NCBI GenBank assembly: GCA_022574595.1
Contig: JACZRS010000020.1
Span: 1-64,000 of the forward strand
DNA from: Planctomycetota bacterium
GTDB lineage: Bacteria > Planctomycetota > Phycisphaerae > Phycisphaerales > SM1A02
Direction of reading: 5' to 3'
Length of the DNA stretch: 64,000 nucleotides
The first letter of the stretch is position 1; the number at the start of each line of letters is the position of its first letter. Positions 5,352-56,447 of the stretch are shown piece by piece. A program made the position numbers and the translations under genes. Under the pieces are notes generated by a model. The model had not been told where the DNA came from. It was given only the letters and a program-made list of their open reading frames with translations, and did no database searches.

Positions 5352-6053
5352 TTAATTCCAACTAATACCCTTTGGCCAGGCCTTAAAACTTTGCTGCTCC
5401 GCTTGACCAACAAGTTGATGCAGGTTGGTTAATTGCTTAAGAATCATATCAGCCCGTCTAGTTGCGTCCGCCTCTGCTAAAAGCTGATATCTAATTTCGC
5501 CATCACCTAACATGGCAAAGCTAATTAGTTCCAGCAGCGCATGCGTTGGTACATCATCCTTTTCAAACCAATTCATCACAGTCTTGACACAGCGCATTCG
5601 CTTAAGGTATCTGCTACCTAGAAGCCCAATTAGTTCATCACGAACCTGTGGCAAGAGTGGAAGTGGATCATCCAGAGATTCTAGCGGGGTAATTTGCGCC
5701 CTTAAATATGAACAATCCTCATCGGGATCAATCAATTCTGCAATTTTAGCTCTGCATATTCCCTGCACTAAAACGTCATGCTGATCGGAAGGCAAATATG
5801 CGTGCTGCACAATATGCCCCACACAAACAGCAGGTCGCAAGCTGGATGAATCAAATGACGAAGTTTGATTTCGCTGGTTGATGTAACTTGCCATAGCGAT
5901 TTGGCGAGTGCTTTGAAGTGAGTCTTCTATAAGCTGATAAAAGTGAGATTCAAAGACGTGAATTGGTAGTAGTGCATGCGGAAGCAATACTTCATCAGGC
6001 AGGGGGAAGACCGGCATAGGTTGCGAAAAGTTTACATGCACAGCTTTGGACAT
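5352..6053 (-). CDS. Lon N-terminal (substrate-binding) domain protein
   Basis: The product is a stand-alone LonN (PUA-like) domain protein without the AAA+ or protease parts of Lon. The diagnostic start FPLPDEVLLPHALLPIHVFE (about residues 16-35) and the later VGHIVQHAYLPSDQ...LVQGICRAKI pattern match this family. Stand-alone LonN proteins are widespread, but their function is mostly unproven. I chose the ATG at 6053 (MSKAVH...); an upstream ATG at 6095 would add 14 residues and neither has a strong Shine-Dalgarno. It lies downstream of the HDOD gene on the same strand and converges on the amidase gene. Confidence 0.82.
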   Translation of the reverse strand: MSKAVHVNFSQPMPVFPLPDEVLLPHALLPIHVFESHFYQLIEDSLQSTRQIAMASYINQRNQTSSFDSSSLRPAVCVGHIVQHAYLPSDQHDVLVQGICRAKIAELIDPDEDCSYLRAQITPLESLDDPLPLLPQVRDELIGLLGSRYLKRMRCVKTVMNWFEKDDVPTHALLELISFAMLGDGEIRYQLLAEADATRRADMILKQLTNLHQLVGQAEQQSFKAWPKGISWN

Positions 6054-6153
6054 ACACCATGATATGCCTACATCGATCACGAAACGAAAACGCATGGCAT
6101 CGAAGCCACATTGGGCCTTTAGGATTATTTTTCTAAGGGTTTAGCTAAATCAA

Positions 6154-7041
6154 TCAACCGAACATTGCTTCGATTTCTTCAAACGCTTCAGGAAGATTGC
6201 TCTTAATAACCGCTAGTTTTTCCGCAGAAAGTTGGATTTCATCTAGTACATCTGGGACGATTTCAAGGCTCTCAAGATCGCCACGGAATCCATAGTCAGC
6301 CTGGCCTGCAAGTCGATCTGCTACATACACGATAGAAGTAAGTGTACGGTTGGGTTCGGGTAGTTCCGTGGGGTCATGGTGATGTCCAGTCACATATGAA
6401 AACGACTGTGGGAACTTCCATGCATCACATAGACCCGCTCCAAATGCTTGATGGTCTGCACCAAGAATGCGAGTTTCAATCTCACGCATATTGCATGTTG
6501 GAACGTTATCATCATCAAAAGTCATTTCTTCAAAGACTGTTACGAGTTCATGTCTCATGGCTTGAACTTCGACCATGATTCCAATGTCATGGATAAGGCC
6601 AGCCAGGAACGCTTCATCTGCCAGACCCATTTTTAATTCATCACAGATGAGTTTGCTGCCTGCTGCTACTGCTATGGAATGAGTCCATAAGTCACGAGCA
6701 GCAAATTGTGGGCACATCTCGCCGCCACGGAAAAGCTTGGTCAGACTCGCAGCAATGGCGATATTCTTGACCGCATTAAGACCCAACAACACGATCGCTC
6801 GATTGATAGAGCCAATCTGCCTGGGCAAACCATAGAACGCTGAATTCACGACTTTGAGAATACGACTGCACAACGCCTGGTCATTTGAGATGATGTTGTG
6901 TAAGTCCTGAGCAGTGCTCGTGGGATCTTCCACCAACTCGATGATCTTCAGCGTTATCTCCGGCAAAGTGGCAATATGACTAATGCCGGCGATGGCGGTG
7001 TCTACGACAGCTTGCTTTTCTTCGCTTTCAATGGCGTCCAT
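6154..7041 (-). CDS. HDOD domain signalling protein
   Basis: This ~295-residue cytoplasmic protein is an HDOD domain (an HD-related fold lacking full catalytic residues) over nearly its entire length. It begins with the typical LPEITLKIIELVEDP and follows with SRILKVVNSAFYGLPRQIGSI and RAIVLLGLNAVKNIA. A LIHDIGIMVE segment then resembles the HD motif. HDOD proteins act in signal transduction, often with c-di-GMP or chemotaxis systems, but no partner domain is fused here. The start at 7041 is favoured by AGGGG 9 nt upstream; the frame continues upstream to 7110. It is downstream of neuC by ~120 bp and may or may not share its transcript. Confidence 0.87.
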   Translation of the reverse strand: MDAIESEEKQAVVDTAIAGISHIATLPEITLKIIELVEDPTSTAQDLHNIISNDQALCSRILKVVNSAFYGLPRQIGSINRAIVLLGLNAVKNIAIAASLTKLFRGGEMCPQFAARDLWTHSIAVAAGSKLICDELKMGLADEAFLAGLIHDIGIMVEVQAMRHELVTVFEEMTFDDDNVPTCNMREIETRILGADHQAFGAGLCDAWKFPQSFSYVTGHHHDPTELPEPNRTLTSIVYVADRLAGQADYGFRGDLESLEIVPDVLDEIQLSAEKLAVIKSNLPEAFEEIEAMFG

Positions 7042-7159
7042 GTAGCTACCCCTGTGCATTATGGGTATGAAAACCCTGCTCAAGGGAAGATCGACCGCTG
7101 AGTCAACCAACTTGATCTAAGGTCCGGAAAATACTGGTTCTTGGCCTAGTTTTTGGGTC

Positions 7160-8272
7160 CTAGAACGTGTTGCGCTTAGTAATCGGGTATTGATCCATAT
7201 CAAGTGTCGCTAATAAATTGGCGGTTCTCACACCTGTTGCACCATCTCCGTAAGGGTGCTTGACTGGCTCGATTTCATAAGCAAGCCCACGAGCAATTGC
7301 TGGGAATATCTGGTGGCTCTTAGCTTCGGGAACATCAATCACATTAGCGCACAATTCGCGTCCTGCTTGTCTTGGACCAACATTGACGCATCTAACACCA
7401 AGGGCTGCACACTCAATTAATCCTGCACTGGAATTTCCTACGATCACTCTTACTCGCTGCAACAGACCGATAAAGTCTTTTCGCGGAAGATGCTCTCGAT
7501 ACTCGCATCCTGATTCTAGGATCACTTGCAGGATTCCTTCCCGTCCGGGATCGTGATTGGGATATAACGCAAGAACTTTCCCCGATTCTTGTGATAGATC
7601 CATCAATCGTTTAGCTAAATCCTGCTCAAAGTCAAAATCTCCGCCGGTTGGATGTAATAAATAGACAATCTCCGGCCAACCTAGCTCATTGAACTTCTCA
7701 TCACTAAGTGGAGGCGTATCGTCAAGATCATCAACCGCAGGTGAACCAACGGTATGAATTCGCTTGGGATCTTCTCCAAGATCAACAATGCGTTGAGCGG
7801 ATTGTTCACTGGCGGGAAGATGTATGTGCGCCAACTTTGTTATTGCGTGTCGCATTGCTTCATCTGCGATACCTTGTGCTCTATCACCTCCGTGCATGTG
7901 CACAAGATGAATTCCTCCAACTGATGCTGCGGATGCTGCTGCGAACGCTTCGATGCGATCACCAAGAACCAGCACAAAATCAACTTTGCGTTTGGAAAAT
8001 TCCTCAGCCAGTCCACTTATACCTCTACCAAGTGCGTTTGCATCTGCTAAGCGCGTAGTTTCGCCCGGTCTTTGCATGGTGATAGTACAGCTAATTTGAA
8101 AGTTCTTTGCGACTTCTTCAGATGTAGGGTCTGGTTCCAGTAGATGTGTGCCGGTTACAAATGTGAGCAGTTCCAGCTCCGGATGCTTGTCTATTGCGCG
8201 CATGACAGACCTGAGCAGTCCGTAATCTGCCCTTGAACCTGTAACAACTGCAACTGTTCGCCCATTGGCCAT
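7160..8272 (-). CDS. neuC: UDP-N-acetylglucosamine 2-epimerase, hydrolysing (NeuC/LegG type)
   Basis: NeuC-type enzymes convert UDP-GlcNAc to ManNAc and UDP, the first step toward sialic acid; LegG does the same on a di-N-acetylated sugar for legionaminic acid. The 370-residue product starts with the family signature TGSRADYGLL. It also carries the HMHGGDRAQG and VGNSSAGLIECAALGVRCVN motifs that contact UDP. It is the last gene of a minus-strand set (Maf fusion, neuA, neuB, neuC), 56 bp after neuB. No genes for the UDP-diNAcBac precursor are nearby, so Neu5Ac is the simplest product, but the legionaminic version cannot be excluded from sequence reading alone. Confidence 0.88.
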   Translation of the reverse strand: MANGRTVAVVTGSRADYGLLRSVMRAIDKHPELELLTFVTGTHLLEPDPTSEEVAKNFQISCTITMQRPGETTRLADANALGRGISGLAEEFSKRKVDFVLVLGDRIEAFAAASAASVGGIHLVHMHGGDRAQGIADEAMRHAITKLAHIHLPASEQSAQRIVDLGEDPKRIHTVGSPAVDDLDDTPPLSDEKFNELGWPEIVYLLHPTGGDFDFEQDLAKRLMDLSQESGKVLALYPNHDPGREGILQVILESGCEYREHLPRKDFIGLLQRVRVIVGNSSAGLIECAALGVRCVNVGPRQAGRELCANVIDVPEAKSHQIFPAIARGLAYEIEPVKHPYGDGATGVRTANLLATLDMDQYPITKRNTF

Positions 8273-8328
8273 CCAAACAGTTTACAAATTAGCTGGCATT
8301 GGTCTATTGGACTATTTTTATCTATAGG

Positions 8329-9411
8329 TTATGTAGGAGCGACCTGGCTGGTTTTTGCTGTAATAGCAGTGTCGCAGACATCAGGCTTCTTTAAGTCTGT
8401 TTCCAAAAGAAGTGTATCTGCCTCAAGCGCATGGGAAAGTTGTTGGCCAAGAATCTCTTTTAGCCTATATGGTTCTATCCCAGTGCCGGGACGTTTTATG
8501 GTCAAATCGCTCTCGGTTAATATGTGGCCGGCATCTAGCTTATGCTTAGTGATAATAGATTGGCGTGAGACGTTTCGTACATCATGCTCGATTGCATCAG
8601 GCTCTTTGGTTTGGCTACCTAACATTGAAAACGCTCTTTTAATATCCTGTACATACTCCCCAAACTCATCAGGTTCAAACGAGGCTGCGTGGTCAGGCCC
8701 GGGCGCATTTCGGTCATAGGTTATGTGCTTTTCAATAATCGAAGCACCAGTTGCAACAGCTAAAGCGCCCGTATCTACCGACGTTGTATGGTCGGAATAA
8801 CCAACTGCAACCGAAAAATTCTGCATTAGTATTCTGATACCCGCAAGATGCGCAGAACCATTTGGGGTTGGATAGGCACTTACACATTGAAGCAGTGCAA
8901 AGGGATAATTACCAAGCCAATCTACTGCGCGTTTAACTTCCGCTAAGGTAGCTGCACCGGTACTTAGAATGATCGGCTTTGATGTAGCTTTCATTGCCTG
9001 AATAAGCGGGCGATTAATTATATCGGTTGAAGCTATTTTTAGAGCTGCCCAATCAATTAAAGCTGCAACTTGCACTAATTCAACGGAATACACCGTAACG
9101 ATAGGATGCAGATTCTTTGTTACTGCGTAAGCAGCAAGTAGCTTCATGTCAGCGATAGACAATTCGAGTTTGCGTAGTAATTCTGATGCGTCAGCAATTC
9201 CGGGGGAAGCTTGATATGTAGCTAATTTTGATGCACTACTTAACAAGCGATCAGTTTCAAAGAATTGCAGTTTGACGGCATCTGCACCGGCTTGGCTTGC
9301 GTGATCGATCAACTCTTGTGCGCGCGTAACAGATCCATCGTGATTTACGCCGATTTCTGCAATTACATAAGGCTCGTATGCAGAACCAATTTCGCGAGTT
9401 CCAATTTTCAT
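8329..9411 (-). CDS. neuB: N-acetylneuraminate (nonulosonate) synthase
   Basis: NeuB condenses ManNAc (or a related hexose) with phosphoenolpyruvate to make a nine-carbon acid. The 360-residue protein has a TIM-barrel domain beginning AEIGVNHDGS (about 18-27), with ADAVKLQFF and STGAATLAEV, and then YSDHT and EKHIT motifs. A C-terminal SAF (antifreeze-like) domain spans about 285-345 (SIITKHKLDAGHILTESDL). Its ATG overlaps the neuA stop by four bases (ATGA), so the two are likely translationally coupled. Legionaminate synthase (NeuB2/LegI) is the alternative name. Confidence 0.9.
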   Translation of the reverse strand: MKIGTREIGSAYEPYVIAEIGVNHDGSVTRAQELIDHASQAGADAVKLQFFETDRLLSSASKLATYQASPGIADASELLRKLELSIADMKLLAAYAVTKNLHPIVTVYSVELVQVAALIDWAALKIASTDIINRPLIQAMKATSKPIILSTGAATLAEVKRAVDWLGNYPFALLQCVSAYPTPNGSAHLAGIRILMQNFSVAVGYSDHTTSVDTGALAVATGASIIEKHITYDRNAPGPDHAASFEPDEFGEYVQDIKRAFSMLGSQTKEPDAIEHDVRNVSRQSIITKHKLDAGHILTESDLTIKRPGTGIEPYRLKEILGQQLSHALEADTLLLETDLKKPDVCDTAITAKTSQVAPT

Positions 9412-10124
9412 GTTATTGCCCCAGCTGGTTCACGCATCAAAATCGCTTGCGCTAACGCTAAATCAACTGCATCATCAATATCAACTACCGCACCTGGAGG
9501 AGTTTGTATTCCACGACGATCTTTACCAAGAAATGTATGTGGATCCTTCGGAATAGCAGATTGCAAACTCGCTTTAGTTACAGCTATCACGCCGCCGTTT
9601 GGCAAAAATAATTTCGGCAAGTCCTGTCTTCGATCTATCTTATTTTCAATATACGCGCTGATTCGATTCTCATTATCTATGCGACACATCCAAAACGGAT
9701 GATGCTTTGAAACATCACTGTAAGATTGAACACTGTCCGCCCCCGTCGTAATTAGTAATTCAACGGCGTGGTCAATCAGATCGGCTGGGCGAATCGGCAC
9801 GTTTGCATATAACACTACTATTACAGCTTCATCTGAGTTGCTTTGCTCTACGGCATGATTAACAACTTCACTTACTGTTGCGGTATCAGTAGCAAGCTCA
9901 GGCGGCCTGTCAATTACCTGCACATCCATCCCACTGGCAGCGGAAGCAATATCCTGGCCATCTGTCGAAACGACAATCCGCGTTACACTTTGAGCAGCTT
10001 TGGCGTGCTCAATAGTGTGGCAAATCATGGACTTGCCCGCTAATTTGAGGGAATTCTTGCCCGGCAGTCCCTTACTACCAGCTCGTCCAATCACAACCGC
10101 AATTACACCAGTTTGGCTTATCAT
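9408..10124 (-). CDS. neuA: CMP-N-acylneuraminate cytidylyltransferase
   Basis: NeuA activates the nonulosonate as its CMP-sugar. The 238-residue protein has the CMP-synthetase P-loop-like start VIGRAGSKGLPGKN (about 11-24) and later the family-typical LYANVPIRPADLID. It keeps the R-x-GSKG-x-PGKN core needed for CTP binding. It overlaps both neighbours by four bases: its ATG lies in the stop of the Maf fusion gene, and its stop lies in the neuB start. This tight coupling of sugar activation with the presumed transferase suggests one pathway that delivers CMP-sugar to the Maf protein. Confidence 0.88.
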   Translation of the reverse strand: MISQTGVIAVVIGRAGSKGLPGKNSLKLAGKSMICHTIEHAKAAQSVTRIVVSTDGQDIASAASGMDVQVIDRPPELATDTATVSEVVNHAVEQSNSDEAVIVVLYANVPIRPADLIDHAVELLITTGADSVQSYSDVSKHHPFWMCRIDNENRISAYIENKIDRRQDLPKLFLPNGGVIAVTKASLQSAIPKDPHTFLGKDRRGIQTPPGAVVDIDDAVDLALAQAILMREPAGAIT

Positions 10125-13100
10125 GGCAATACTACCCAGTCCGGCAACTCATCATATTTTAACTGCGATGCAAGCTCATTGCGCTTAGCTACTAACTTTT
10201 TCCACAAGTCGCTAACTGATGAATCCTTAACATTACCCACACAATCCAAGCCTTGTGCATCAAATTCACTAACAGGAACAGACCCATCGCAAAGAATCAT
10301 CATTCTGCATCTGCCTACGTCGATCATAACGCGACTCGGGGGCGCGGTTTCCGTCAAATTGTCCTGGCCATCTTTTAATAAATCTTCTTTGGTGCATGGT
10401 TCAATTACCGCTGCACCCAATGTCATCTGCCAGCGATCAAAGAAGGATTCGATGTCTTGATAAGTTGTGCAGCAACGCTTTATGCGGGGCACAATCCAGG
10501 GAATTGCAAAGGCAGCATTGGGGGAGTGGTTGGTCAATCGTTTTCTATTAGCCAGCAAGTACTGCATGTTTTCCAGTACTTCACGAAAACCATCAACTCC
10601 CATCATCTGCTTATATGTTTCAGCGCGATCCGCATTAAGATCAATACTTACAACATCAAGCGGGCATTTTAATAAACGATCTAGTGTTGTTTGGTTTGTG
10701 AGCAGTTCGGTCCTCAGATGAATTCCGCTAATACCCGATGATTTTGCGAGATTTATAATTTCATCAAATTGATTGTGTAGAAGTGGATCCCCTGTGCCAT
10801 GCAGTGTCAGAACGCAATCGCCTTCTTCGCCCAGCGTTTGGAAGATTCTCTTTGTCAGGTCGATTGATATTGGGCTGCGCGAAGGAGTATTGCTCTTACT
10901 TTTGCGCTGGCAATTAAGTTCTAGTATTACATGCTGAGGCAAATGTGTTGCTTTACTGGAATCATATTCAGTAATAGCTTCTACTATCTGTGCTGATGTA
11001 ACTTTGCCAAGGGATAATTTGGGTTCGATGATTTGCTTGATTGCTCTTTTGTAGCGAGGAGCATCAAACGTAGCGCGGATGCGCGAACGGGTTATATCAT
11101 GATCAATCTGTATGTTGGCATCTCGCGCTATGGTGTCAGGTTGGGGTGCATTGGGTTGATAAACAAGCAAGCCGCCTACGGTTGAAACTCTATTGCGAAT
11201 CGAAAGTTCCTGCATAAGCCCAGCACTTAACAAGCATCCGCAAAGCCCAGGCGGAGCTTGTGTGAATACCAGGCCGTGCTGATCAGGCATTTGCAAATGT
11301 CTCTCGATCACTGCATCGCAACCAGCCTCGCTTGAGACATCTATAAGAGGCCAATCCGGCCCAACAATTAGTGCAGCGGTAAGCTCGCGTTTTTTCATTA
11401 CTTGCGACATTATCTGCGGGCAAAGCACTTCATCATAAACGCTCATACCCCCAATACCTCCTCGCCAAGATGTTGGGCACCATTTTCTGGCAGCGGCAAC
11501 GGCTGGAAATTCGCTGCCAAATGGCGAGCCATCACAATGCTCAATTTCAACTGGCAAACCAATTTTGCTGCGATCGATAAGCGCTTCGACATCAAAATCA
11601 TGCGGAGATATAAGGATAATCTCCTTTAGCTGCTGGGAAGTACCTAGTTTTTGTAATGTTGTTTGTAAGACAGTTTGGCCGGCAAATTGCTCTGCGAGTG
11701 ATCGCTTAACTCCCAGGCTGTTCTGCAGAGGATCAATGGGAACAAGCGCAGCAATTTTTGAAGCGCGTTTGGTTTTGTGTTTGCCATCAATGTTTACAAG
11801 ATTAGTTGGGGCATTGTTTGATGTATCAATCTGCTTACCTTGTAGAATCAAACTGGATTGTTTTAGCTGACAGCTCATTTCATCTGCAGCATCTGCTATC
11901 CATATTACGTTTTGCAGATCGCGATCAAGCTGAGCTTTTTGTCGTTCTATGGGATCAAGATCTTCTTGCATTTGCAAACGTCGATCAGCCTTAAAGCGAT
12001 TAAAAACCCCAAGCTGATTAAGATGGCTGAGTATTTCAAAGGTACTAAAGCGCTCCTGCACATCTTTGCGGTATTTTTCAATTTTCTTGAAGTGCTTCTC
12101 CATCTTCTGGTGATCAAGTTGATCGCGCAGCATTTTTCGAATAATCGATGCGGTCTTTTTGGATGTTTGCTTAAGTTGCGTAATTTCACCAAGCACTTCA
12201 TTTACACGCTCATTAGCAATGTTCAGACGCTTTGAATCCAATTCCGTGGAAGGGATAGGAATTTCAGGCAGCGGTTTAGTTGCATATTTTTCCAGTACTT
12301 CAGCAAGTGTTTTATTTTCAACTCGCTGCTTGGCAACCCCGCCTTCGGTTGCATCAATGATCTTTACATCTTCATCCTGGTAGTTTGCGAAATCTCGCTC
12401 GAATTGATTTAGATAGGTTGTCATCTGCAAATCGCTGTAGATAGAGCGGCCATGCACATCTACCATTTTCTGCAAGTGTGATCTATGGCGAACAATACGC
12501 TGCCACTCCATCATCTCGATGGTGTTAAATGGATTCAGCTCAGGCGCCCAAACTTCATGAATAGCAGTGCCCGGCGTGTAATACAAACCATCAGTAAAAC
12601 CCAAGTCCTGGCCTATAAATGAAATTGGATTGCACCCAAGATGTCGAGCTAAATATAGCGCAAGGTGGGCAACAGTAGCACCTGCGGGGATGTTGCCCAT
12701 TGGCCGTTTGTGTTCGCCTAATAGTTGATCCAAGAATCCAGCTCCGCAACATCTAATTGCCCCGGGAAAAGAATCCAAAATGGCTGGATGCGCCTTTGGT
12801 TCTGCTACTAAAGTCACTCCCTGCACCATTTGGGGAGTTATTCCCTCATAGAAACGCTTGGATATCTGATGGTAATCCAGTGCGGTAACAAAGTGCGGTC
12901 GAATACCTAGATCAAGCAGCGGCCTCAAGGTCGTCTGCGCAGCGATAATTACGCAACGATCCCTTACTCCAGGCTGAGCGAGCAGATGAACGTTCTTACG
13001 CAAACTTGGGCCCGCTGAAACAACAACCGCAGGATATCCCTTTGCTATATTCTCAATATCATCAATTCCCGCACCGGCAGCGTAATGATCAAAATTAAGC

Positions 13101-13729
13101 AGGTTATTGCGAATGGTATCGATCGAGCGCATTAATGTAGTTAAGAGTGTTGTCTTAGCGGCTGAAACATGTTTGGAAAAGGTTTCAACAAACGTTGCTG
13201 ATTGCTTCGACAGCCTGCTGCGGCTATTGGGGTGCTCAAGAAAATGAACGCCTTGGGCAATGATAGATTCAGAACCATCCAGCAAGCGTGCTAGCTCCCC
13301 GCTATCTGATGGATCGGTAACCCAAACCACAAGAGAGTTTTTGATCCATTGGGAATGATCAATATTTTCAAATACAGCGCGTAGCAACTTCAAATCTGAT
13401 TCAAAGACAATGATGATGCCCGTTCTTTGCATCCGCTCAGCAAGCAACTTAACGTGATAGCCCGCACCAAATCCAAGTACAACCACGACGGCATTTTCTA
13501 CAAGATCAATGGATTCGGTGAGACGCTGGGCTTCATCTATGGGGCGGTGCTTGGAGCAGAGTCCTTTGCCTTGAATAATCACTGCTGGTGCACTTTGCTG
13601 TGTGTCTATAATCGATATGTCCGTGTATGGCTCAGCCTGTCTGATTTTCTTAGCAAAGTCAGCATTGCGCTCGCCCATATGCTGAAGATTCCTCTCCAGC
13701 GGGGATTCAATTGCAATAGTTGTTGTCAT
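10121..13729 (-). CDS. Maf/DUF115 nonulosonate transferase-like protein fused to a SpsF-like domain and a degenerate radical-SAM/SPASM-like domain
   Basis: The product has 1202 residues and three recognisable parts. Residues ~60-480 are a Maf/MptE-like region (DUF115), with VVLGFGAGYH (83-92), VVVSAGPSLRKN (235-246) and ISFIGQDLGFTDGLYY (369-384); Maf proteins attach nonulosonates to flagellin. A helical linker (500-620) follows. Residues ~658-860 resemble a SpsF/NeuA-type nucleotidyltransferase (LVPIDPLQNSLGVKRSL; later GPDWPLID). Residues ~932-1180 follow a radical-SAM/SPASM layout (VILELNC, LHGTGDPLLH, then DGSVPVSEFD...GNVKDSSVSDLW). The CX3CX2C cluster motif is absent, with only Cys940 at that site, and the SPASM cysteines are also missing, so this part is probably not a working Fe-S enzyme. 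It heads the neuA-neuB-neuC set with ATGA coupling, which suggests it uses the CMP-sugar. The exact acceptor is unknown. Confidence 0.8.
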   Translation of the reverse strand: MTTTIAIESPLERNLQHMGERNADFAKKIRQAEPYTDISIIDTQQSAPAVIIQGKGLCSKHRPIDEAQRLTESIDLVENAVVVVLGFGAGYHVKLLAERMQRTGIIIVFESDLKLLRAVFENIDHSQWIKNSLVVWVTDPSDSGELARLLDGSESIIAQGVHFLEHPNSRSRLSKQSATFVETFSKHVSAAKTTLLTTLMRSIDTIRNNLLNFDHYAAGAGIDDIENIAKGYPAVVVSAGPSLRKNVHLLAQPGVRDRCVIIAAQTTLRPLLDLGIRPHFVTALDYHQISKRFYEGITPQMVQGVTLVAEPKAHPAILDSFPGAIRCCGAGFLDQLLGEHKRPMGNIPAGATVAHLALYLARHLGCNPISFIGQDLGFTDGLYYTPGTAIHEVWAPELNPFNTIEMMEWQRIVRHRSHLQKMVDVHGRSIYSDLQMTTYLNQFERDFANYQDEDVKIIDATEGGVAKQRVENKTLAEVLEKYATKPLPEIPIPSTELDSKRLNIANERVNEVLGEITQLKQTSKKTASIIRKMLRDQLDHQKMEKHFKKIEKYRKDVQERFSTFEILSHLNQLGVFNRFKADRRLQMQEDLDPIERQKAQLDRDLQNVIWIADAADEMSCQLKQSSLILQGKQIDTSNNAPTNLVNIDGKHKTKRASKIAALVPIDPLQNSLGVKRSLAEQFAGQTVLQTTLQKLGTSQQLKEIILISPHDFDVEALIDRSKIGLPVEIEHCDGSPFGSEFPAVAAARKWCPTSWRGGIGGMSVYDEVLCPQIMSQVMKKRELTAALIVGPDWPLIDVSSEAGCDAVIERHLQMPDQHGLVFTQAPPGLCGCLLSAGLMQELSIRNRVSTVGGLLVYQPNAPQPDTIARDANIQIDHDITRSRIRATFDAPRYKRAIKQIIEPKLSLGKVTSAQIVEAITEYDSSKATHLPQHVILELNCQRKSKSNTPSRSPISIDLTKRIFQTLGEEGDCVLTLHGTGDPLLHNQFDEIINLAKSSGISGIHLRTELLTNQTTLDRLLKCPLDVVSIDLNADRAETYKQMMGVDGFREVLENMQYLLANRKRLTNHSPNAAFAIPWIVPRIKRCCTTYQDIESFFDRWQMTLGAAVIEPCTKEDLLKDGQDNLTETAPPSRVMIDVGRCRMMILCDGSVPVSEFDAQGLDCVGNVKDSSVSDLWKKLVAKRNELASQLKYDELPDWVVLP

Positions 13730-13821
13730 CTGCAGCGTATCTCAACCTTTTAGCACAAGAGTGCGTATGAGATATCGGAAGAACAGCATTTCGTGCTGCA
13801 AATAGCGAGCTAAGATTACTT

Positions 13822-14418
13822 ATGCCAGATCCGCCGAATGTAGGACTATTTACCCGCTTCGTATTGGAAAATCCCTATCCAATCGCGGTTGTTGCAATTG
13901 TAGTGGGGGCGGGGTTGCTTATTAGTGGGCTTCGTGAAGGGCTGCGGAATCGCCAAAGAATTGGAATTCTAGGAATCTCAATTGCGATTGCAGTGTTGAT
14001 CATTGCCTGGTCGGTCACTACCTCAGGGGAACACGCCAAGGCATTGACCCGTTCACTTGTAGAGGCGACCGCCCAGGCAGATGCAATAAAAGTGATGTCT
14101 CACTTCACCTCTGATGCAACCATGTCCTTTTCATCGCCAACCAATCCAGGCTATCCGATTAACTTTATTGAAGCTCAAGCAATTCGTTTAGAAAGTCAAT
14201 TCAGTATCGAATCCAACAGGATCAGATCGTTAAAAGGTTTCACGCAGTCGGCAAACTCAGCCATCGTACATTTATCTTGTTCTACAACAATAGCAGGTGG
14301 GTATGTCGCTACACCTAGTAGTTGGGTGCTGCGTATTGAACGTCAAGATGATGACTCATGGAAAATCGTACATTTCACATGGGTGTCAATACTGAATCGG
14401 CCCCCTCCAGAATTGTAA
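13822..14418 (+). CDS. Two-TM membrane protein with an NTF2/SnoaL-like outer domain
   Basis: The 198-residue product has two hydrophobic segments (about 16-35 and 48-66), separated by a short basic loop (REGLRNRQR). The remaining ~130 residues, probably outside the membrane, resemble an NTF2-like (SnoaL) fold. The clues are LTRSLVEATAQADAIKVMSHF (helix with the ageing cone-fold start), then FSSP and a final WKIVHFTW strand. I do not recognise a named family. It is divergent from the Maf fusion gene, and its stop lies close to the convergent large secreted protein at 14448. Its function is unknown. Confidence 0.7.
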   Translation: MPDPPNVGLFTRFVLENPYPIAVVAIVVGAGLLISGLREGLRNRQRIGILGISIAIAVLIIAWSVTTSGEHAKALTRSLVEATAQADAIKVMSHFTSDATMSFSSPTNPGYPINFIEAQAIRLESQFSIESNRIRSLKGFTQSANSAIVHLSCSTTIAGGYVATPSSWVLRIERQDDDSWKIVHFTWVSILNRPPPEL

Positions 14419-14447: not shown

Positions 14448-17183
14448 TTATTTAGAACCGGAAGATATCAGATCGTTTTCTTTCTCAAGTTCAATAAACG
14501 GAGGTATATAAAGTATCTGGTTCAATCTGGCGTTTCCGCCTCTCTCTATCACACCTACTCTGATTTCTTTGCCTGCTAAGAGTCTTGCGCCGTCTTTGAT
14601 TCTAAATACCTTGACCGAAGTTCGATTAGGCGCCAAAGTCGCAATACTTCTTCGTTGTCGAGGCATTTGCGGAGCTGAGATATAACCATCCAGGCTAATT
14701 GGTTGCTTGCCCGTATTGGTAATATATTGCGTGATATGCAAATCATAAGTACCTGTATCGGGGTTGTGGACAGCTTGCCAATGTGCAGACATTCGTGCTT
14801 CTTCTAGACCAACTTCTAATTCGACATATACACTTAGTTTATAGTCCCTATCAGCTGAGAGCTCGATTTGTGCTTCAACAAATGTGCGCTCTGCAACAAC
14901 TCCCGGATCGAATGTAAGAGTCACAGGTTGGCTAATCACTTCGCCTGGCTGAATTGTTACTCTATGTCTTCGTGGCGAAATGCGCCAACTCTCCGGCGCA
15001 ATAAGTCTGATATCAACTGAGATCGGAACATCCCAAGGGTTTGAGAGTTTAATTTCATGTTCGTGTTGCTGGCGGCGGGCTGGTATGAAGCTGGGAGTGA
15101 ATTGGAAACCAGCTCGGAATTTCGCCAAGTTTATATCAACGCCTTCTATAAAAACAGGCAAATTATCCAGCTCAATAGTGTGGTAGCCATCTTCAACATA
15201 TACTATCTTGCGATTACCAAATACATCCTTAACTACAACAGGGCCATCCGCTAGTAGCATTTTAATAACGGACTTTTCTGTTGTAGTTTGTTCATTCCAG
15301 GCAGCGAGAACAGTATCACCGGGTCTAGCGCCTTTGATCAGCCAACCACGTAACCCCTCGCCCAGGGGCAAATCACCAGCATAAGATCGACGGCCGAGCT
15401 GGTTAGCCAGAATATGCCAGGGGCCATATGCAATATCTGGCACAAGCTGGGCGCGTCCTCTACCACGCATATTCCAAGGAGCTTGAATTGTTGGTTGCTT
15501 TATCCCAGCCCGCCAGCCGTAAAGTGTACGAAGTACAAGATCAATAATGCGATCACGTGGCGAATATAGTTCAGGTGGCAGCGACTGATATGTGACAGAG
15601 AGAATTGTTGCATCAAATAACCATGCGGGCGCAAATTCCTCAAGTGATTCCGCTTGTATGTTATAGGGGAGCAAGATACTGTAACCGTGTGGTGATGGAA
15701 TGGGCGGTGGCTCACGCTCAACCGGCCAGGGTATGTTCACAATCGGTCCGGGCACAAAATTCTTCAGTGACCGATCCATATTTCCAATCAGAGCGTTAAG
15801 GTTCCGTGGATTTATTACCTCAAACGCAGAGGCATTTCCAATTTGCCATCTTTGTGAGATAGCCCCAAAATTAACTAATAAGCTATCGAGTGAATCACTC
15901 TCACCTAGTTCCTGGTCATTGGCAGATAAGTTATTATTGCTGAACTGAGAATGCATTTCATCGAGAAGGAATGTCAGTTCAATTGCATCTGCTAGTAATA
16001 TCTTTGCTGCTCTACGCACCGCTTGTGGGGGCGTAACCTTTGGTTCGTTAAAGCCAGACTGAGTGTCAAGTTTATCCAGTGACATTATAACTCTGGCAAC
16101 TCCTAATTGTCGAAGTAAATGTACAACCGTATCTATGTGGACGACAGGCGTGGGTGGAAGAATCACTCCAAAGGAGTTTTCATGCGCACGGGACCCAAGT
16201 AAATCATCAGGCATTACCACAAAGTCAAGCAAACGTCGATCAATGTCGCCATTGCCTTCACGAATATCAAGCACAGCTCGATACCATCCGCATTGCAATT
16301 GGCTTAAATCAATGATTCTGCGCGTGGTGCCACGTTCTATTTCAAATACTTCATCCAGCAGAGTATTGCTGTTTAAATCCAGGATTCGAAGCTTGCCGCT
16401 AAGATCTTCGCCAGTCAGGTCGCGCACTAAGACATTGAATTTAGGTTCCGCAGAAACAGTCACCACATTTCCAGGCGAGGACGTAGATAATTCAATGCGA
16501 GGCTGATGCCAAATGGTAATTTCATCAAACCACGCTTGCCCCGACATATCTTCCAGCAGCGGTTCGCCATGAATACGCTTGCTGCCGATAAACTGATTTG
16601 GCTGCAATAATTGAAGATCAAGAACCAAGTCAGCTGCCTTATTAAAGTCACCAAATAAAAGTATAGAGATATCCTGCCAGGTGTCACCAGTTCTTGCTAA
16701 CGAAGAGTTAATGCGGCTATCTTCAATAATTTTTCCTGTTTCATCATTGAACCAAGCAGATATCCTGGCGCGTGCATGATTTAACCCTTTGGTTCGCACT
16801 TTGGCAGTAATCATGTAATCACTACCCGGCAGAACCGGAATTACCGCAGTGGGGATCTTTGCGGATAATGAACCACCATCTAAATTAAAGCCAAAGGACC
16901 AGTTACCTCCAGCTGCAAATTCATTTGTCAGTTTCATCTTTCCAAAAGCGGGAAAGCCTTTGCCCGGCTCTATGTGTCGATAGAAATTGATCGGCATCTC
17001 GTAAGGAGCTTTCTGCGCTTCTTCGAAATCAAAATGCCTCAATAACCGCCTGAAAGAAGAAAGCCCGGAGCTATTAAATTTAATTTGATCCTGTCTAGCA
17101 ATTACCTGAGCTATACATGGCCCAGCTAAAGATAACGCGCAAAGAGATGCTGCAATTAAACGCCATTGACCAAGGAGATTCAT
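14448..17183 (-). CDS. Large secreted protein with CBM-like and NEW3-like domains, function unknown
   Basis: About 911 residues follow a clear signal peptide (MNLLGQWRLIAASLCALSLA-GPCIAQ). An N-terminal beta-sandwich resembling carbohydrate-binding modules covers about 60-230 (WSFGFNLDGGS...YMITAKVRTKG...GDTWQDISILLFG). A central region (about 330-640) contains a glycosidase-like layout but no catalytic motif I can name. The C-terminal third resembles a NEW3/NPCBM-associated fold (EIKLSNPWDVPISVDIRL...VTIQPGEVISQPVTLTF). The ATG at 17183 was preferred over 17219 because it puts the signal peptide at the start; neither has a good Shine-Dalgarno. It is divergent from 17271. A role on cell-surface or environmental polysaccharide is only a guess. 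Confidence 0.72.
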   Translation of the reverse strand: MNLLGQWRLIAASLCALSLAGPCIAQVIARQDQIKFNSSGLSSFRRLLRHFDFEEAQKAPYEMPINFYRHIEPGKGFPAFGKMKLTNEFAAGGNWSFGFNLDGGSLSAKIPTAVIPVLPGSDYMITAKVRTKGLNHARARISAWFNDETGKIIEDSRINSSLARTGDTWQDISILLFGDFNKAADLVLDLQLLQPNQFIGSKRIHGEPLLEDMSGQAWFDEITIWHQPRIELSTSSPGNVVTVSAEPKFNVLVRDLTGEDLSGKLRILDLNSNTLLDEVFEIERGTTRRIIDLSQLQCGWYRAVLDIREGNGDIDRRLLDFVVMPDDLLGSRAHENSFGVILPPTPVVHIDTVVHLLRQLGVARVIMSLDKLDTQSGFNEPKVTPPQAVRRAAKILLADAIELTFLLDEMHSQFSNNNLSANDQELGESDSLDSLLVNFGAISQRWQIGNASAFEVINPRNLNALIGNMDRSLKNFVPGPIVNIPWPVEREPPPIPSPHGYSILLPYNIQAESLEEFAPAWLFDATILSVTYQSLPPELYSPRDRIIDLVLRTLYGWRAGIKQPTIQAPWNMRGRGRAQLVPDIAYGPWHILANQLGRRSYAGDLPLGEGLRGWLIKGARPGDTVLAAWNEQTTTEKSVIKMLLADGPVVVKDVFGNRKIVYVEDGYHTIELDNLPVFIEGVDINLAKFRAGFQFTPSFIPARRQQHEHEIKLSNPWDVPISVDIRLIAPESWRISPRRHRVTIQPGEVISQPVTLTFDPGVVAERTFVEAQIELSADRDYKLSVYVELEVGLEEARMSAHWQAVHNPDTGTYDLHITQYITNTGKQPISLDGYISAPQMPRQRRSIATLAPNRTSVKVFRIKDGARLLAGKEIRVGVIERGGNARLNQILYIPPFIELEKENDLISSGSK

Positions 17184-17270
17184 CAACTTGTTATCGGTCG
17201 ATTGGCCTAGAGGCTCCATGTTTGCCGATGTTCATATCTACGGTTTATTTAACTACATAGGGGAATTATT

Positions 17271-52271: not shown

Positions 52272-53153
52272 TTGACCTCGATTCTTAGAACCATATCAGC
52301 CTTGATACTGCTATTAGCACCCTTTTTGTGCAGCGGATGTAAGGACGAAAGCTCAGCACTGAGCCCACGCCAAGGTAACCAAACTCCACATCAACAAAGC
52401 AACAAAACTCCTACTCAAAGAGAAAAAACTCCCCACCAGGATAATCAACCGCCTCCGCAGGCTACAGCTACGCTTCAACCGCCACTTAACTCTATATTTC
52501 GGATGATCGCGCAAGGCGGCTTTGAGCCAGCCAGGCAGCAGCTTGCAGCTTATCTATTAGAGAATCCCAAAAGTGGCGAAGCTAAATTCCTCTTGGGATT
52601 GTCGTTTCACCGCCAAAAAAGATACGCACTAGCGAAACCTCACTTTGAGGAAGCAGCCAAGCTTAGCCCGTTCTTTCATCCAACCTTTCATTTCCAGGGG
52701 TGGTGCCTTTATTACCTGGGGGAAATCGATGATTCTTATGCAGCTTTCAAAGAGCATGTCAAGCTAGATCCCAAAGAAGGTGATTCAATCTTCGGCATGG
52801 GGCTTATTGAAATGGAACTAGATAAGCTGGATGATGCGGAAAGTCATTTTCAAACCGCAATCGATTTGCAGAAAGATAATCCAAGACGTGTCCGAGACGT
52901 TGCGAAAATTCATGCAAGGTTGGCGGATATATTTATTCGAAGAGAGAATTTTAGCAAAGCGGAAGAAGAGCTAATGCAAGCCCTGAAGCTTTGGCCGCAA
53001 CACTATATTGCTCACTACAAATTGTATGTAGTACTTAATCGACTTGGTAAGGAACAAGAAGCTCAAGAAGCCTTTAAGCTTTACAAACGTGGACAAGCTC
53101 AAGCTGCAATCAGGAGAGGTGTTCCGGGGGTTCCGGGGGTTCCGGGGCAATGA
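52272..53153 (+). CDS. TPR lipoprotein of the first TPR-CRTAC1 unit
   Basis: The ~293-residue product (TTG start at 52272 with AGGAA 6 nt upstream) has a lipoprotein signal LTSILRTISALILLLAPFLC-SGC. An ATG at 52194 would extend it by 26 residues and weaken the signal. A Gln/Pro/Thr-rich linker leads to at least three TPR repeats (about 120-300), such as AEAKFLLGLSFHRQKRYALA and DAESHFQTAIDLQKDNPRR. The C-terminus is VPGVPGVPGQ, encoded by three tandem 9-nt units. The stop overlaps the next ATG (ATGA). TPR proteins scaffold complexes; the partner is probably the CRTAC1-type protein encoded next. Confidence 0.78.
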   Translation: MTSILRTISALILLLAPFLCSGCKDESSALSPRQGNQTPHQQSNKTPTQREKTPHQDNQPPPQATATLQPPLNSIFRMIAQGGFEPARQQLAAYLLENPKSGEAKFLLGLSFHRQKRYALAKPHFEEAAKLSPFFHPTFHFQGWCLYYLGEIDDSYAAFKEHVKLDPKEGDSIFGMGLIEMELDKLDDAESHFQTAIDLQKDNPRRVRDVAKIHARLADIFIRRENFSKAEEELMQALKLWPQHYIAHYKLYVVLNRLGKEQEAQEAFKLYKRGQAQAAIRRGVPGVPGVPGQ

Positions 53154-54826
53154 TGAGAATGCAATCAATTACTCGTGGTTTTGTTACAGTTGTTTTCTGC
53201 ACGTTATTAATGTGCAGCAGTGCGGAAACCAATTTCTCAGGCGAATCTGCTTTTAACTTTACTACCTTGAAAAGTAGTGAATCGGGAATAGATCTCATCC
53301 TAACCAGTGGGAAACAACCAACCAGCGAAATACTAGAAGTAAACGGCGGAGGATTGGCGCTTATCGATTTTGATAACGATGGGGATCAAGATCTCTTTAT
53401 CACAAATGGCGCAACACTAAAAAACCCAGAGGCTGGCCCGGGTTCAAGGCTCTACGAAAACCTTGGCAACCTTAAGTTCCGAGACGTTACGCAATCTGCA
53501 GGAATTAACCTTTTCCGCTGGGCAATGGGAGCAGCGGTAGGCGACTATAACGGTGACGGTTTTGATGACATCTTTGTAACCTGCTATGGAGCAAATGTAT
53601 TATTGCGAAATAATGGCGACAAAACTTTTACGGATGTTACTTCGCAAGCTGGTTTGGCTGACAATCGCTGGGGTACAAGTAGCGCATTTTCAGATCTTGA
53701 TAACGATGGGGATCTGGACTTGTATGTAGTTAATTACCTCGTATTTGATGTGGATAATCCGCCAAACCCGTCAAATTTCAAGGGTGTTGAAGTTATGGCT
53801 GGTCCCAGTGGTCTACCTCCCCAACACGATATCCTTTACGAGAATCTTGGTAACGGCACATTTGCCGACATCACTCAAAAGTCCGGTTGCCTAAAAGTGC
53901 CACCATCATTTGGCCTGGGCGTGATAATTATTGACTTTGATCTTGATGGCAAACAAGACATATTCGTCGGTAACGATTCGATGATCAATTTCTTCTTTCA
54001 CAATAAGGGGAATTTGCAATTTGAGGAAAAAGGATTGTTCAGCGGGTTGGCTGCCAATATCGAAGGTGGGGAACAAGCAACAATGGGGATCGCAATTGCG
54101 GATGTTGATGGCAACGGCTATCCCGATGTGTTTACGACTAATTTCTCAAGCGATACAAACACACTACACCTGAACGTAAACGGTTCATTTTTTGATGATA
54201 GAACGCAGCAATATGGGTTAGCTATGGTCTCGCGAACGTACCTGGGGTGGTCTGCGGGATTTGCTGATTTTGATCTGGATGGCGATGAGGACCTGCTCTT
54301 TTTTAACGGTCACGTATATCCCCAGGCAACTATGGGAAACATGGAATCCGACTACCATCAGAAGCCCTTGTTATTTGAACGAATTGGTAGAAGATTTTCC
54401 AGGGTGACAGATTTTAAAGCTGCGCCATTTCTTGAAGAAACTAGATCACACCGCACCGCTCTCTTTGCAGATTTAGATCAAGATGGTGATATTGATATTG
54501 TTACTACCCAACTGGGTGGGCCTGTAAAAATAGTGCGAAACGATCAGACTGCAGGCAATTGGCTAAGCATCCAATTGCAGGATAAACGCAGCCAAACACA
54601 AAACCGCCGTGGGTTGGGAAGCACTGTGAAAATTACTTATGAAGATTCATCACAGCTAAGGTGGATTTACACAGGTGGTTACCAGGCCTCTAACGCACCA
54701 ATCGCACACTTTGGACTGCCCGAAAACTTATCCAAAGTCTCTATCCAGATCACCTGGCCTGATGGATATACCCAGCTGATTGATGGTTTAAACACAAAAT
54801 CTCACCACAGCATTAAGCGTGATTGA
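53150..54826 (+). CDS. FG-GAP/ASPIC-UnbV (CRTAC1-type) secreted protein, unit 1
   Basis: The 558-residue protein has a signal (SITRGFVTVVFCTLLMCSSA). A row of FG-GAP repeats forms a likely seven-blade propeller (DFDNDGDQDLFITNGA, DYNGDGFDDIFVTC, DLDNDGDLDLYVVNY and others). A C-terminal ASPIC/UnbV domain follows (NRRGLGSTVKITY...ITWPDGYTQLIDGL). CRTAC1-type proteins are calcium-binding extracellular proteins. The ATG overlaps the stop of the TPR gene. A homologous pair (54933/56444) lies directly downstream. Confidence 0.85.
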   Translation: MMRMQSITRGFVTVVFCTLLMCSSAETNFSGESAFNFTTLKSSESGIDLILTSGKQPTSEILEVNGGGLALIDFDNDGDQDLFITNGATLKNPEAGPGSRLYENLGNLKFRDVTQSAGINLFRWAMGAAVGDYNGDGFDDIFVTCYGANVLLRNNGDKTFTDVTSQAGLADNRWGTSSAFSDLDNDGDLDLYVVNYLVFDVDNPPNPSNFKGVEVMAGPSGLPPQHDILYENLGNGTFADITQKSGCLKVPPSFGLGVIIIDFDLDGKQDIFVGNDSMINFFFHNKGNLQFEEKGLFSGLAANIEGGEQATMGIAIADVDGNGYPDVFTTNFSSDTNTLHLNVNGSFFDDRTQQYGLAMVSRTYLGWSAGFADFDLDGDEDLLFFNGHVYPQATMGNMESDYHQKPLLFERIGRRFSRVTDFKAAPFLEETRSHRTALFADLDQDGDIDIVTTQLGGPVKIVRNDQTAGNWLSIQLQDKRSQTQNRRGLGSTVKITYEDSSQLRWIYTGGYQASNAPIAHFGLPENLSKVSIQITWPDGYTQLIDGLNTKSHHSIKRD

Positions 54827-54932
54827 GTTCCTGCCATCTTAGATCTCTATCTCTGAGTGATGGTGAGTTGCAGAGTGTGTTGAGGCGATCCCGGCACTGA
54901 TAGCGTCCGTTTAGGATATAGTTCACATTACC

Positions 54933-56447
54933 GTGACTGATTCCAAGCAACAACCCGGCAATCCTCAAGAGCATGACAAACAGCCAAACCAAAATGGTGG
55001 TGAAGGCTGGTCAGTTGCGGTGATTGTCACGGTAGTTATCGTCATCGGCATCGGGCTTTATAGTCTATCGCGCTTTCAGATCGCACGAAAAACCCAAGGG
55101 GTGCGCAACCTCTACATTCCTCGCGTTCCCTTGCCAAGCGATTTGACGTTGTTGTCCCCACAACTGCGCCCAATCGTGATAGAAGCGGCACAGCTATGTG
55201 AGAATAATCCTGGCGATCCGGAGCCTTTTGTGCAGATTGGACGAATCTATCACGCCAATCGTGAGACCCAGCTTGCGATACAGTCCTATGAGATTGCCCT
55301 GACGCTTGGCGCAGATGATGCGCGCACGCCTTATCTGCTCGGGCTTCTTCATATGGATATCGGCGAAAGCCAACAAGCAATCACTCGGTTTCATGAGTCA
55401 ATCGCGCGCGACAATACCTACGCACCGGCGCATAACAACTTAGGTTTGAATTTACTTGAAGTGGGGCGCATCGACAAAGCGCTCCAGGAGATTAGCCAAG
55501 CTATTACTCTCAACCCTGATGATCCAATCTTTCACACTTCCCTGGCAATAGCCTATCGCCAAGCGGATCGATTAGATGAGGCTGCGACCTCTCTGCGCAC
55601 TGCGCTTAAACTGGATCCAAAACTTGCATCAGCTCATCAACTGCTTGGGCTGACACTCAAGGCCATGGGCGAAAGTGATACCGCTCGCAAGCACCTGAAT
55701 CAGATTACGCGCTATGCGACTGAGATTATTAAGGATCCCTGGTTAGCGGAGCTTCAAGATCTTGTTGTCTCGCTTCAAATTATCTTGGATCAAGCGGAAG
55801 CGCATCTATCAGCTGGTCGGCCGGGCAGTGCTGTTAATGCGTTAATGAAAGCGCGCAGCCTTTTTCCCGACAAGGCAAGTTTATTCAAGGTACTTGGACG
55901 CGCTTACCAACAGCTAGGCCAATCTCAGCAAGCTGTTGATTCGTATGTCCAAGCGCTTACCCTCGAGCCGGATGATGCTGATATGCGCGCTCAATTGGCG
56001 GCGATTCTCTTTGATCACGACAATCTTATTCAGGCGGATCGTGAAGCACAAAAGGCTATTGAAATCGAACCAAATCATGCGCAAGCTCATATTATCAAAG
56101 GCGCTCTGGCTCTACAGCAGGAAAATTATGCCAAGGCAATCGATATCCTAAAATCAGTCATCGCGCGACGCGGCGATCTGGTTGCAGCACATGTTCTGCT
56201 GGGGCAAGCCAAAGAGGCCTTGGGGAAATTGGAAGAGGCTGCTGAAGCGTATGAGCAGGCGCTGAAGATGGAGCAGGATCTTGAAGTCGCCCATCGAAGG
56301 CTTGGTATGGTGTATCGCAAGCTCAAGCGTTTTGACGAGGCACAACGTGAACTTGAGGCAGCCGCTAAGCTCGATCCATCAATCAGCGAGACGCATGAGC
56401 AGTTGAGGTTACTCGAAATGCAGCGAAAGGATTTAGGCGATTCATGA
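54933..56447 (+). CDS. TPR membrane protein of the second TPR-CRTAC1 unit
   Basis: The 504-residue protein (GTG start) has a short polar N-terminus, one TM helix (about 27-45, VAVIVTVVIVIGIGLYSL), and then about ten TPR repeats. Examples are DPEPFVQIGRIYHANRETQL, APAHNNLGLNLLEVGRIDKA and LVAAHVLLGQAKEALGKLEE. The stop overlaps the ATG of the next gene (56444-56447), as in the first unit. The spacing between the two units is ~110 bp, so all four genes may be co-transcribed. Confidence 0.8.
   Translation: MTDSKQQPGNPQEHDKQPNQNGGEGWSVAVIVTVVIVIGIGLYSLSRFQIARKTQGVRNLYIPRVPLPSDLTLLSPQLRPIVIEAAQLCENNPGDPEPFVQIGRIYHANRETQLAIQSYEIALTLGADDARTPYLLGLLHMDIGESQQAITRFHESIARDNTYAPAHNNLGLNLLEVGRIDKALQEISQAITLNPDDPIFHTSLAIAYRQADRLDEAATSLRTALKLDPKLASAHQLLGLTLKAMGESDTARKHLNQITRYATEIIKDPWLAELQDLVVSLQIILDQAEAHLSAGRPGSAVNALMKARSLFPDKASLFKVLGRAYQQLGQSQQAVDSYVQALTLEPDDADMRAQLAAILFDHDNLIQADREAQKAIEIEPNHAQAHIIKGALALQQENYAKAIDILKSVIARRGDLVAAHVLLGQAKEALGKLEEAAEAYEQALKMEQDLEVAHRRLGMVYRKLKRFDEAQRELEAAAKLDPSISETHEQLRLLEMQRKDLGDS

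Follow-up and report, generated by a model that had tools for sequence, protein, structure and literature searches.

The 64,000-nt stretch of DNA analysed here (the window; positions 1 to 64,000 of contig JACZRS010000020.1, assembly GCA_022574595.1, Planctomycetota bacterium, Phycisphaerales, SM1A02) encodes a 1202-residue protein in which a Maf-like glycosyltransferase is followed by a module of two further enzyme folds, an SpsF-like cytidylyltransferase domain (the NTase domain) and a radical-SAM/SPASM-like part. To judge from its sequence, the fused gene very probably encodes the flagellin nonulosonate transferase (Maf) of this genome, to which an accessory module is covalently joined. By sequence and by model, this module is without the ligands of both iron-sulfur (Fe-S) clusters. 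Two former enzymes in the chain seem to have lost their activity (one is a radical-SAM protein minus both of its Fe-S sites), and our best reading is that the module is a non-redox double pseudoenzyme, mostly under selection, that would bind a cytidine monophosphate (CMP) sugar, NeuA or flagellin for Maf. In its more specific form, which we consider about evenly poised between right and wrong, the module would bind CMP-nonulosonate (or NeuA carrying it) and hand it over to the Maf site in the same chain. The components of the protein are of known kinds. The combination of Maf with a cluster-free relative of spiro-SPASM in one chain appears to be new; the open-access literature that we searched contained no paper on it.

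A preliminary description of this DNA, made from its letters alone, had proposed one 1202-residue frame with Maf, nucleotidyltransferase-like and radical-SAM/SPASM-like regions, and we found support for all three. The Maf/DUF115 region was confirmed by Pfam, with the PF01973 core matching residues 208–380 at E 2e-36 (125.8 bits; gathering cut-off 34.6). At E 0.001, the fused gene is the sole PF01973 match in the genome. The Maf_flag10_N match was sub-threshold (18.7 bits; cut-off 23.5), the Maf structure 5mu5 was matched by phmmer at E 0.0024, and PseD NF050051 matched residues 81–594 (E 1.2e-25) with 90.2 bits, far under its cut-off of 670. By these scores this part is Maf-like and not a member of the PseD NF050051 model. 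Flagellin_N has four matches in the genome. With the Maf/MptE-like flagellin glycosyltransferases (PF01973, PseD, 5mu5) the window protein shares the core domain, adjacent nonulosonate genes and flagellin matches in the genome; it differs from them by approximately 550 additional C-terminal residues with two enzyme folds. Maf, in its published structure, is built of three domains, with a helical, weakly FliS/flagellin-like one at the end (PMC11339370). By analogy, residues ~480–640, which follow the Maf core and precede the extra module, would correspond to that helical third domain.

Residues 652–1202 were modeled with AlphaFold2 (30 rows), and fold matches of the model were sought with Foldseek and then VIA-align. 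The model had a predicted local distance difference test (pLDDT) score of 87.7 and a predicted template modeling (pTM) score of 0.89, with low confidence at approximately 1128–1138 and at 1194–1202. On the radical-SAM side it aligned with SuiB (Z 20.2), MoaA (19.4), SkfB (18.9), anSME (18.4) and BtrN (18.3). On the other side the best of the matches given here was the Leptospira cytidylyltransferase 6oew (Z 20.9, root-mean-square deviation 2.9 over 221 residues), with CMP-Kdo synthetases at Z ~15 and the CMP-Pse5Ac7Ac synthetase 9ftc at Z 14.7.

The radical-SAM and SPASM order of the C-terminal part rests on both profile and fold. Radical_SAM (PF04055) matched residues 940–1061 at E 6e-9 (36.6 bits; cut-off 29.5), its profile being entered only at position 14, and a TIM-barrel/SPASM fold was predicted at 930–1180, so that a fold-based objection raised in advance failed. 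The SPASM profile (PF13186) matched weakly (E 0.19; 12.5 bits, cut-off 21.5). The barrel and SPASM-like fold resemble those of radical-SAM/SPASM enzymes (BtrN, SuiB, SkfB and anSME, with MoaA for the barrel) at Z values of 18–20. Unlike those enzymes, the window protein has no CX3CX2C cluster motif and none of the four SPASM cluster Cys residues; the latter loss had been noted correctly before. The statement that Cys940 alone remains of CX3CX2C has to be corrected. In alignments with spirochaete members that have the motif, Cys940 stands two residues ahead of the first cluster Cys, whose column holds Arg942; this placing depends on MAFFT alignments of a loop. Arg fills that column in all 31 fused proteins of the census described below and in 30 of the 45 unfused planctomycete proteins; at the Cys940 column, 25 of the 31 have Thr. 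On these alignments we rejected the idea that Cys940 survives from the cluster ligands. We infer that the module does no radical chemistry.

Eight of 190 barrel columns reach at least 97% identity in the fused set (Glu937, Arg942, Gly980, Asp981, Pro982, Thr1007, Arg1085 and Trp1100) at a mean pairwise identity of 0.43, and several of them sit at the old cluster loop and at a GGE-like motif. In the hand-over reading, the barrel would offer a second, metal-free pocket around Glu937, Arg942, Gly980-Asp981-Pro982, Thr1007 and Arg1085. The same columns could mean that the module still catalyses an Fe-S-free reaction, such as an acid-base step on a CMP-sugar or sugar, at a new site around Arg942, Asp981 and their neighbors. 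The presence of the sugar-acting radical-SAM enzymes BtrN, BlsE and DesII among the matches would agree with this. However, conservation alone is no proof of catalysis and the searches made here returned no metal-free enzyme of this fold, so we regard surviving catalysis as rather improbable.

The NTase domain of the window protein had no Pfam match at E 1. It was nevertheless borne out by its relatives and its fold: the relative L059 scored above the cut-offs of CTP_transf_3 and NTP_transf_3, a family profile of 27 module sequences matched the solved chains of BtrN (E 1.5e-11), 6oew (E 7e-9) and BlsE (E 3.6e-6), and the model matched 6oew. The fold and both putative metal Asp residues are shared with the SpsF-like cytidylyltransferases (6oew), CMP-Kdo synthetase and CMP-Pse5Ac7Ac synthetase 9ftc. 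The difference from the SpsF-like enzymes lies in the cytidine triphosphate (CTP) loop, whose Arg, Arg and Lys positions in 6oew align with Asp666, Gly673 and Arg676. Among the fused proteins the first column is Asp in 31/31 and the second Gly in 25/31, and the Lys column is Arg in 27/31. Asp792 is kept in 30/31 fused, 29/45 unfused planctomycete and 19/32 spirochaete members, and Asp889 in 28/31, 40/45 and 14/32, respectively. We take the Asp pair to be the metal holder of the nucleotide-sugar complex, as in KdsB work, and the CTP loop to have its usual role in cytidylyltransferases. Because the CTP-loop Arg positions have changed while the two putative metal Asp residues are mostly kept, the module probably makes no CMP-sugar.

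Selection on the module was estimated from the ratio of nonsynonymous to synonymous substitution rates (dN/dS). Comparing L003 with L109, L111 and L114 gave rough values of 0.16–0.17 for Maf residues 1–480, 0.19–0.26 for 481–650, 0.14–0.15 for the NTase domain, 0.18–0.20 for the barrel and 0.30–0.32 for the SPASM tail. In three close pairs with few changes, the tail was at 0.66–1.04 and the rest at 0.13–0.29. Columns with at least 97% identity number 9 of 236 in the NTase domain and 0 of 82 in the SPASM tail, which has a mean identity of 0.32; pairwise NTase identity goes down to 0.26. These values point to purifying selection on the NTase and barrel regions and to relaxation of the SPASM tail. 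A binding or docking role for the module fits, since the NTase and barrel regions appear to be under purifying selection and the Asp pair is mostly kept, while the CTP-loop residues are not. The loss of both clusters and the low identity, lack of conserved columns and raised dN/dS of the tail might instead suggest that the module is passive, decaying baggage of a gene fusion. This explanation suits only the SPASM tail, however: dN/dS of the NTase domain and barrel is near that of Maf, and the fused frame has stayed open across the deep divergence seen in NTase identity. We consider it very unlikely for the module as a whole.

By profile and alignment, the C-terminal half represents a distinct family. 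It is akin to TIGR04321 spiro-SPASM and occurs as a separate gene in other planctomycetes and in spirochaetes. TIGR04321 matched the window protein at 876–1179 (E 4e-13; 48.9 bits, cut-off 250; profile 179–483), and the unfused L052 aligned over positions 75–506 of the 510 in the profile, in the order NTase, barrel, SPASM. In 294 planctomycete genomes no match exceeds 250 bits (the best planctomycete scores are 158–159), so annotation by TIGR04321 would miss the family in planctomycetes. The wide TIGR04321 tally (209/294 planctomycete genomes) was rejected as a distribution of the family; many of those matches are other radical-SAM/SPASM proteins, aligned in the C-terminal half only, and the same wide search was positive in 8 of 14 control genomes. 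A search of viral contigs returned no relative. In the open-access literature searched, we found no paper naming spiro-SPASM or TIGR04321 and none joining planctomycetes, nonulosonic acids and flagella; none on radical-SAM/SPASM proteins in flagellin glycosylation appeared among the titles and abstract starts of the matches listed.

We made a census of 109 family-like proteins, for which a score of at least 95 bits was required. One of them, L064, is a radical-SAM/SPASM protein in which CX3CX2C is present and the N-terminal part does not resemble the NTase domain; it was then dropped. The fusion was found in other planctomycetes: 31 census proteins, the window's included, have the same frame, as do 7 more removed by a length filter. 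This is far beyond chance, and the idea that the fusion is peculiar to the window's genome was discarded. An assembly or reading-frame artefact might be suspected in a draft genome of 31 contigs, but the 31 proteins share the same single frame and form one clade, and two of them come from one-contig genomes (L010 from G009 and L005 from G031); we give an artefact practically no weight.

None of the 31 fused proteins has CX3CX2C or the four SPASM Cys residues, and none has more than one Cys in or near the SPASM columns. In the length-filtered fused proteins (L014, L015, L017, L022, L024, L045 and L050), CX3CX2C is missing too and no more than one SPASM Cys remains. Among the 45 unfused planctomycete members CX3CX2C is likewise absent; four SPASM Cys are present in 37, three in 4 and none in 4 (L036, L039, L108 and L051, the last at a contig edge). 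All 32 spirochaete members have the four SPASM Cys and 7 have CX3CX2C; with the length-filtered L150, which has three of the four SPASM Cys and no CX3CX2C, the totals become 32/33 and 7/33. In the first 81 related genomes, CX3CX2C was found in the C-terminal part of 0 of 51 rows (50 distinct proteins). By Pfam, the Radical_SAM profile is entered at positions 1–3 in the five intact spirochaete members scanned and also in L148, which is without the motif. The SPASM cut-off was passed by 10/10 spirochaete and 8/10 unfused planctomycete proteins scanned; L059 and L034 fell below it, yet have the four Cys.

Among the relatives, cluster loss is graded. That this was once a radical-SAM domain is likely, given that CX3CX2C is kept in 7 of the 33 spirochaete homologues. 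The preliminary description had counted homologues with an intact motif as evidence against itself; they do exist in some spirochaetes, but we take them as a sign of a former enzyme. The seven (L129, L130, L138, L144, L145, L147 and L174) are candidates, by sequence, for a still active radical-SAM enzyme of the ancestral type. Loss of the first cluster through fusion was ruled out by the unfused planctomycete members, which are also without CX3CX2C. As far as the alignments show, the radical-SAM cluster was lost in unfused members as well, and it is the loss of the SPASM Cys that goes with fusion. The spirochaete spiro-SPASM proteins resemble the module in fold order, in mostly lacking CX3CX2C (lost in 26/33) and in a cytidylyltransferase gene downstream (15 of 20 loci); they differ in that the genes read stand unfused, with the SPASM Cys kept and in some also CX3CX2C.

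A FastTree tree of 108 rows, made with the SPASM columns excluded, placed 31/31 fused proteins together with L039 (split) and L051 (contig edge) in a single 33-member clade (local support 99). Fusion and SPASM loss each require three changes on this tree, with the main SPASM loss on the fusion branch and separate losses in L036 and L108, and the tree calls for one main fusion. Because it carries no inferred root and FastTree readily joins long branches, the order of loss, radical-SAM cluster first and SPASM cluster second, is one that we infer from the superfamily-wide motif. In three fused proteins (L047, L048 and L049; L206, L204 and L205 in the wider set) the Maf half is weak or shortened (34–114 bits) and the module well kept (392–552 bits), and no neu genes were found nearby.

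Genomic context was read at 81 distinct module genes of planctomycetes. In 75 of the 78 loci with enough upstream sequence, Maf is fused to the module or next upstream of it. neuA lies downstream in 56 of 70 loci with at least 1.4 kb there, and some neu gene does so in 34 of 45 modules with at least 3.5 kb. In 100 genomes of the spirochaete phylum, entered via a Leptospirales genome, TIGR04321 was present in 96 (89 above cut-off), PF01973 in 99 and NeuB in 96. We chose 20 spirochaete loci for context. A PF02348-type cytidylyltransferase lies downstream on the same strand, in first or second place, in 15 of them (five of these checked with Pfam). Eight of 13 neighboring proteins scanned, free-standing cytidylyltransferases excluded, show PseG-like similarity, all below the model cut-off, and many have a methyltransferase domain. 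Given the neu genes in planctomycetes and the cytidylyltransferase and PseG-like neighbors in spirochaetes, a link of the module to CMP-sugar activation holds in both phyla. Downstream of the spiro-SPASM gene at L156–L174 we also saw cytidylyltransferase, PseG-like and methyltransferase parts, joined in several genomes in one protein of 819–903 residues.

Among 81 related genomes, 58 have both module and flagellin, 3 the module only, 4 flagellin only and 16 neither (Fisher p 1.2e-10). The module-only genomes are G024, G038 and G043, the last with a partial flagellin match; weak flagellin matches in G029 and G060 were scored as absent. This strong co-occurrence would also be expected if the module recognised the acceptor, holding flagellin, or flagellin and a chaperone, as the N-terminal domain of FlmG does, with the conserved pockets serving as protein contacts. 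Caulobacter FlmG is a good precedent: a modular flagellin transferase with a separate, non-transferase module in the same chain that binds flagellin and stands N-terminal to the transferase (PMC7591256). The peptide-modifying SPASM enzymes SuiB and SkfB are also among the good fold matches. Against this, a cytidylyltransferase fold with a kept Asp pair favors a nucleotide sugar over a protein, the module gene adjoins CMP-sugar genes in both phyla, and two genomes without a flagellin match retain the module. Maf's own C-terminal helical domain is, moreover, already weakly FliS/flagellin-like (PMC11339370). Acceptor recognition seems to us unlikely, if less so than catalysis.

The simplest division of labor under CMP-nonulosonate hand-over is that NeuA makes CMP-nonulosonate, the module binds it without making it and Maf transfers it. 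Several observations weigh against this. The Asp pair is less constant outside the fused set, so CMP-sugar binding may not be general, and the CTP-loop columns were compared in planctomycete members only, the spirochaete rows being gapped there. Where 3.5 kb of downstream sequence was available, 11 of 45 planctomycete modules have no neu gene there. In the 20 spirochaete loci, phmmer with the window's proteins found neither Maf nor neu genes beside the module gene, in a limited search that missed cytidylyltransferases which Pfam found. L047, L048 and L049 keep the module with a decayed Maf half, and two of their three genomes (G024 and G038) have no flagellin match. The dS values behind the L003 comparisons are near-saturated (1.2–1.7), pairs with the window protein are saturated for dS, and the Fisher p takes no account of kinship.

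For the history of the module we offer a tentative outline. The lineage would have started as a radical-SAM/SPASM protein whose gene worked next to those for CMP-sugars. Planctomycete members would then have lost the first cluster; loss of the SPASM cluster would have come at about the moment of fusion to Maf, which took place in a single lineage within the window's order. A bolder reading, to which we give somewhat less than an even chance, is that a radical-SAM fold has become a metal-free, selected part of flagellin sialylation: together with the cytidylyltransferase fold it would act as CMP-nonulosonate carrier for Maf-type glycosylation in planctomycetes and spirochaetes, its radical-SAM and SPASM clusters lost stepwise and an Arg at the first cluster Cys, and would finally have been fused to the transferase. 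If true, the family offers a graded natural series (both clusters, SPASM only, none, fused) from an Fe-S enzyme to a cluster-free binding module. It would also point to a likely third component in the Maf-dependent glycosylation of flagellin, in both phyla, and would place the spiro-SPASM family in a setting open to test, the activation of CMP-sugars for protein glycosylation.

The fused gene and its neighbors are listed in Table 1. The proposed ATGA couplings of the fused gene to neuA and of neuA to neuB are both real, and neuC is indeed close, 56 nt beyond neuB. NeuC scored above its NCBIfam cut-off; NeuB and NeuA were above Pfam cut-offs, yet below those of the NCBIfam equivalogs. What we take to be the canonical CTP loop is kept in the translation of NeuA.

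Table 1. Coordinates of the fused gene, its parts and the adjoining genes in the window.
Feature	Positions	Strand	Basis
Fused gene, 1202 aa, Maf + SpsF-like + radical-SAM/SPASM-like	10121..13729	-	ATG-started open reading frame; fused homologues
Maf transferase part, residues 1–640; MptE-like/Maf core 208–380 (12590–13108)	11810..13729	-	Profile and phmmer matches
SpsF-like cytidylyltransferase-fold domain, residues 655–890; Asp666/Gly673 in CTP-loop Arg/Arg columns; putative metal Asp792 and Asp889 kept	11060..11767	-	Alignment, model
Radical-SAM-like barrel without CX3CX2C, residues 931–1120	10370..10939	-	Pfam, alignment, model
Arg942, column of first cluster Cys	10904..10906	-	Arg in 31/31 fused, window protein included
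Cys940, two residues before cluster column, no ligand position	10910..10912	-	Alignment
SPASM-like tail without its four Cys, residues 1121–1202	10124..10369	-	Alignment; relaxed dN/dS; no column with at least 97% identity
neuA, CMP-nonulosonate synthetase	9408..10124	-	4-nt ATGA overlap with fused gene
neuB, nonulosonate synthase	8329..9411	-	4-nt ATGA overlap with neuA
neuC, UDP-GlcNAc 2-epimerase	7160..8272	-	TIGR03568, 295.2 bits (cut-off 235.9)
HDOD-domain gene after neuC	6154..7110	-	Pfam; same place in several relatives

The HDOD gene also lies downstream of neuC in relatives L186–L191, L193 and L194, and perhaps ties the operon to regulation. Promoter and terminator patterns in 5900–14200 were no commoner than in shuffled sequence. 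Upstream of the fused gene, 14448–17219 on the minus strand encodes a 923-residue protein with no Pfam match at E 1e-5. Elsewhere in the window, at 53150–58126 on the plus strand, a TPR protein lies between two FG-GAP/UnbV_ASPIC proteins.

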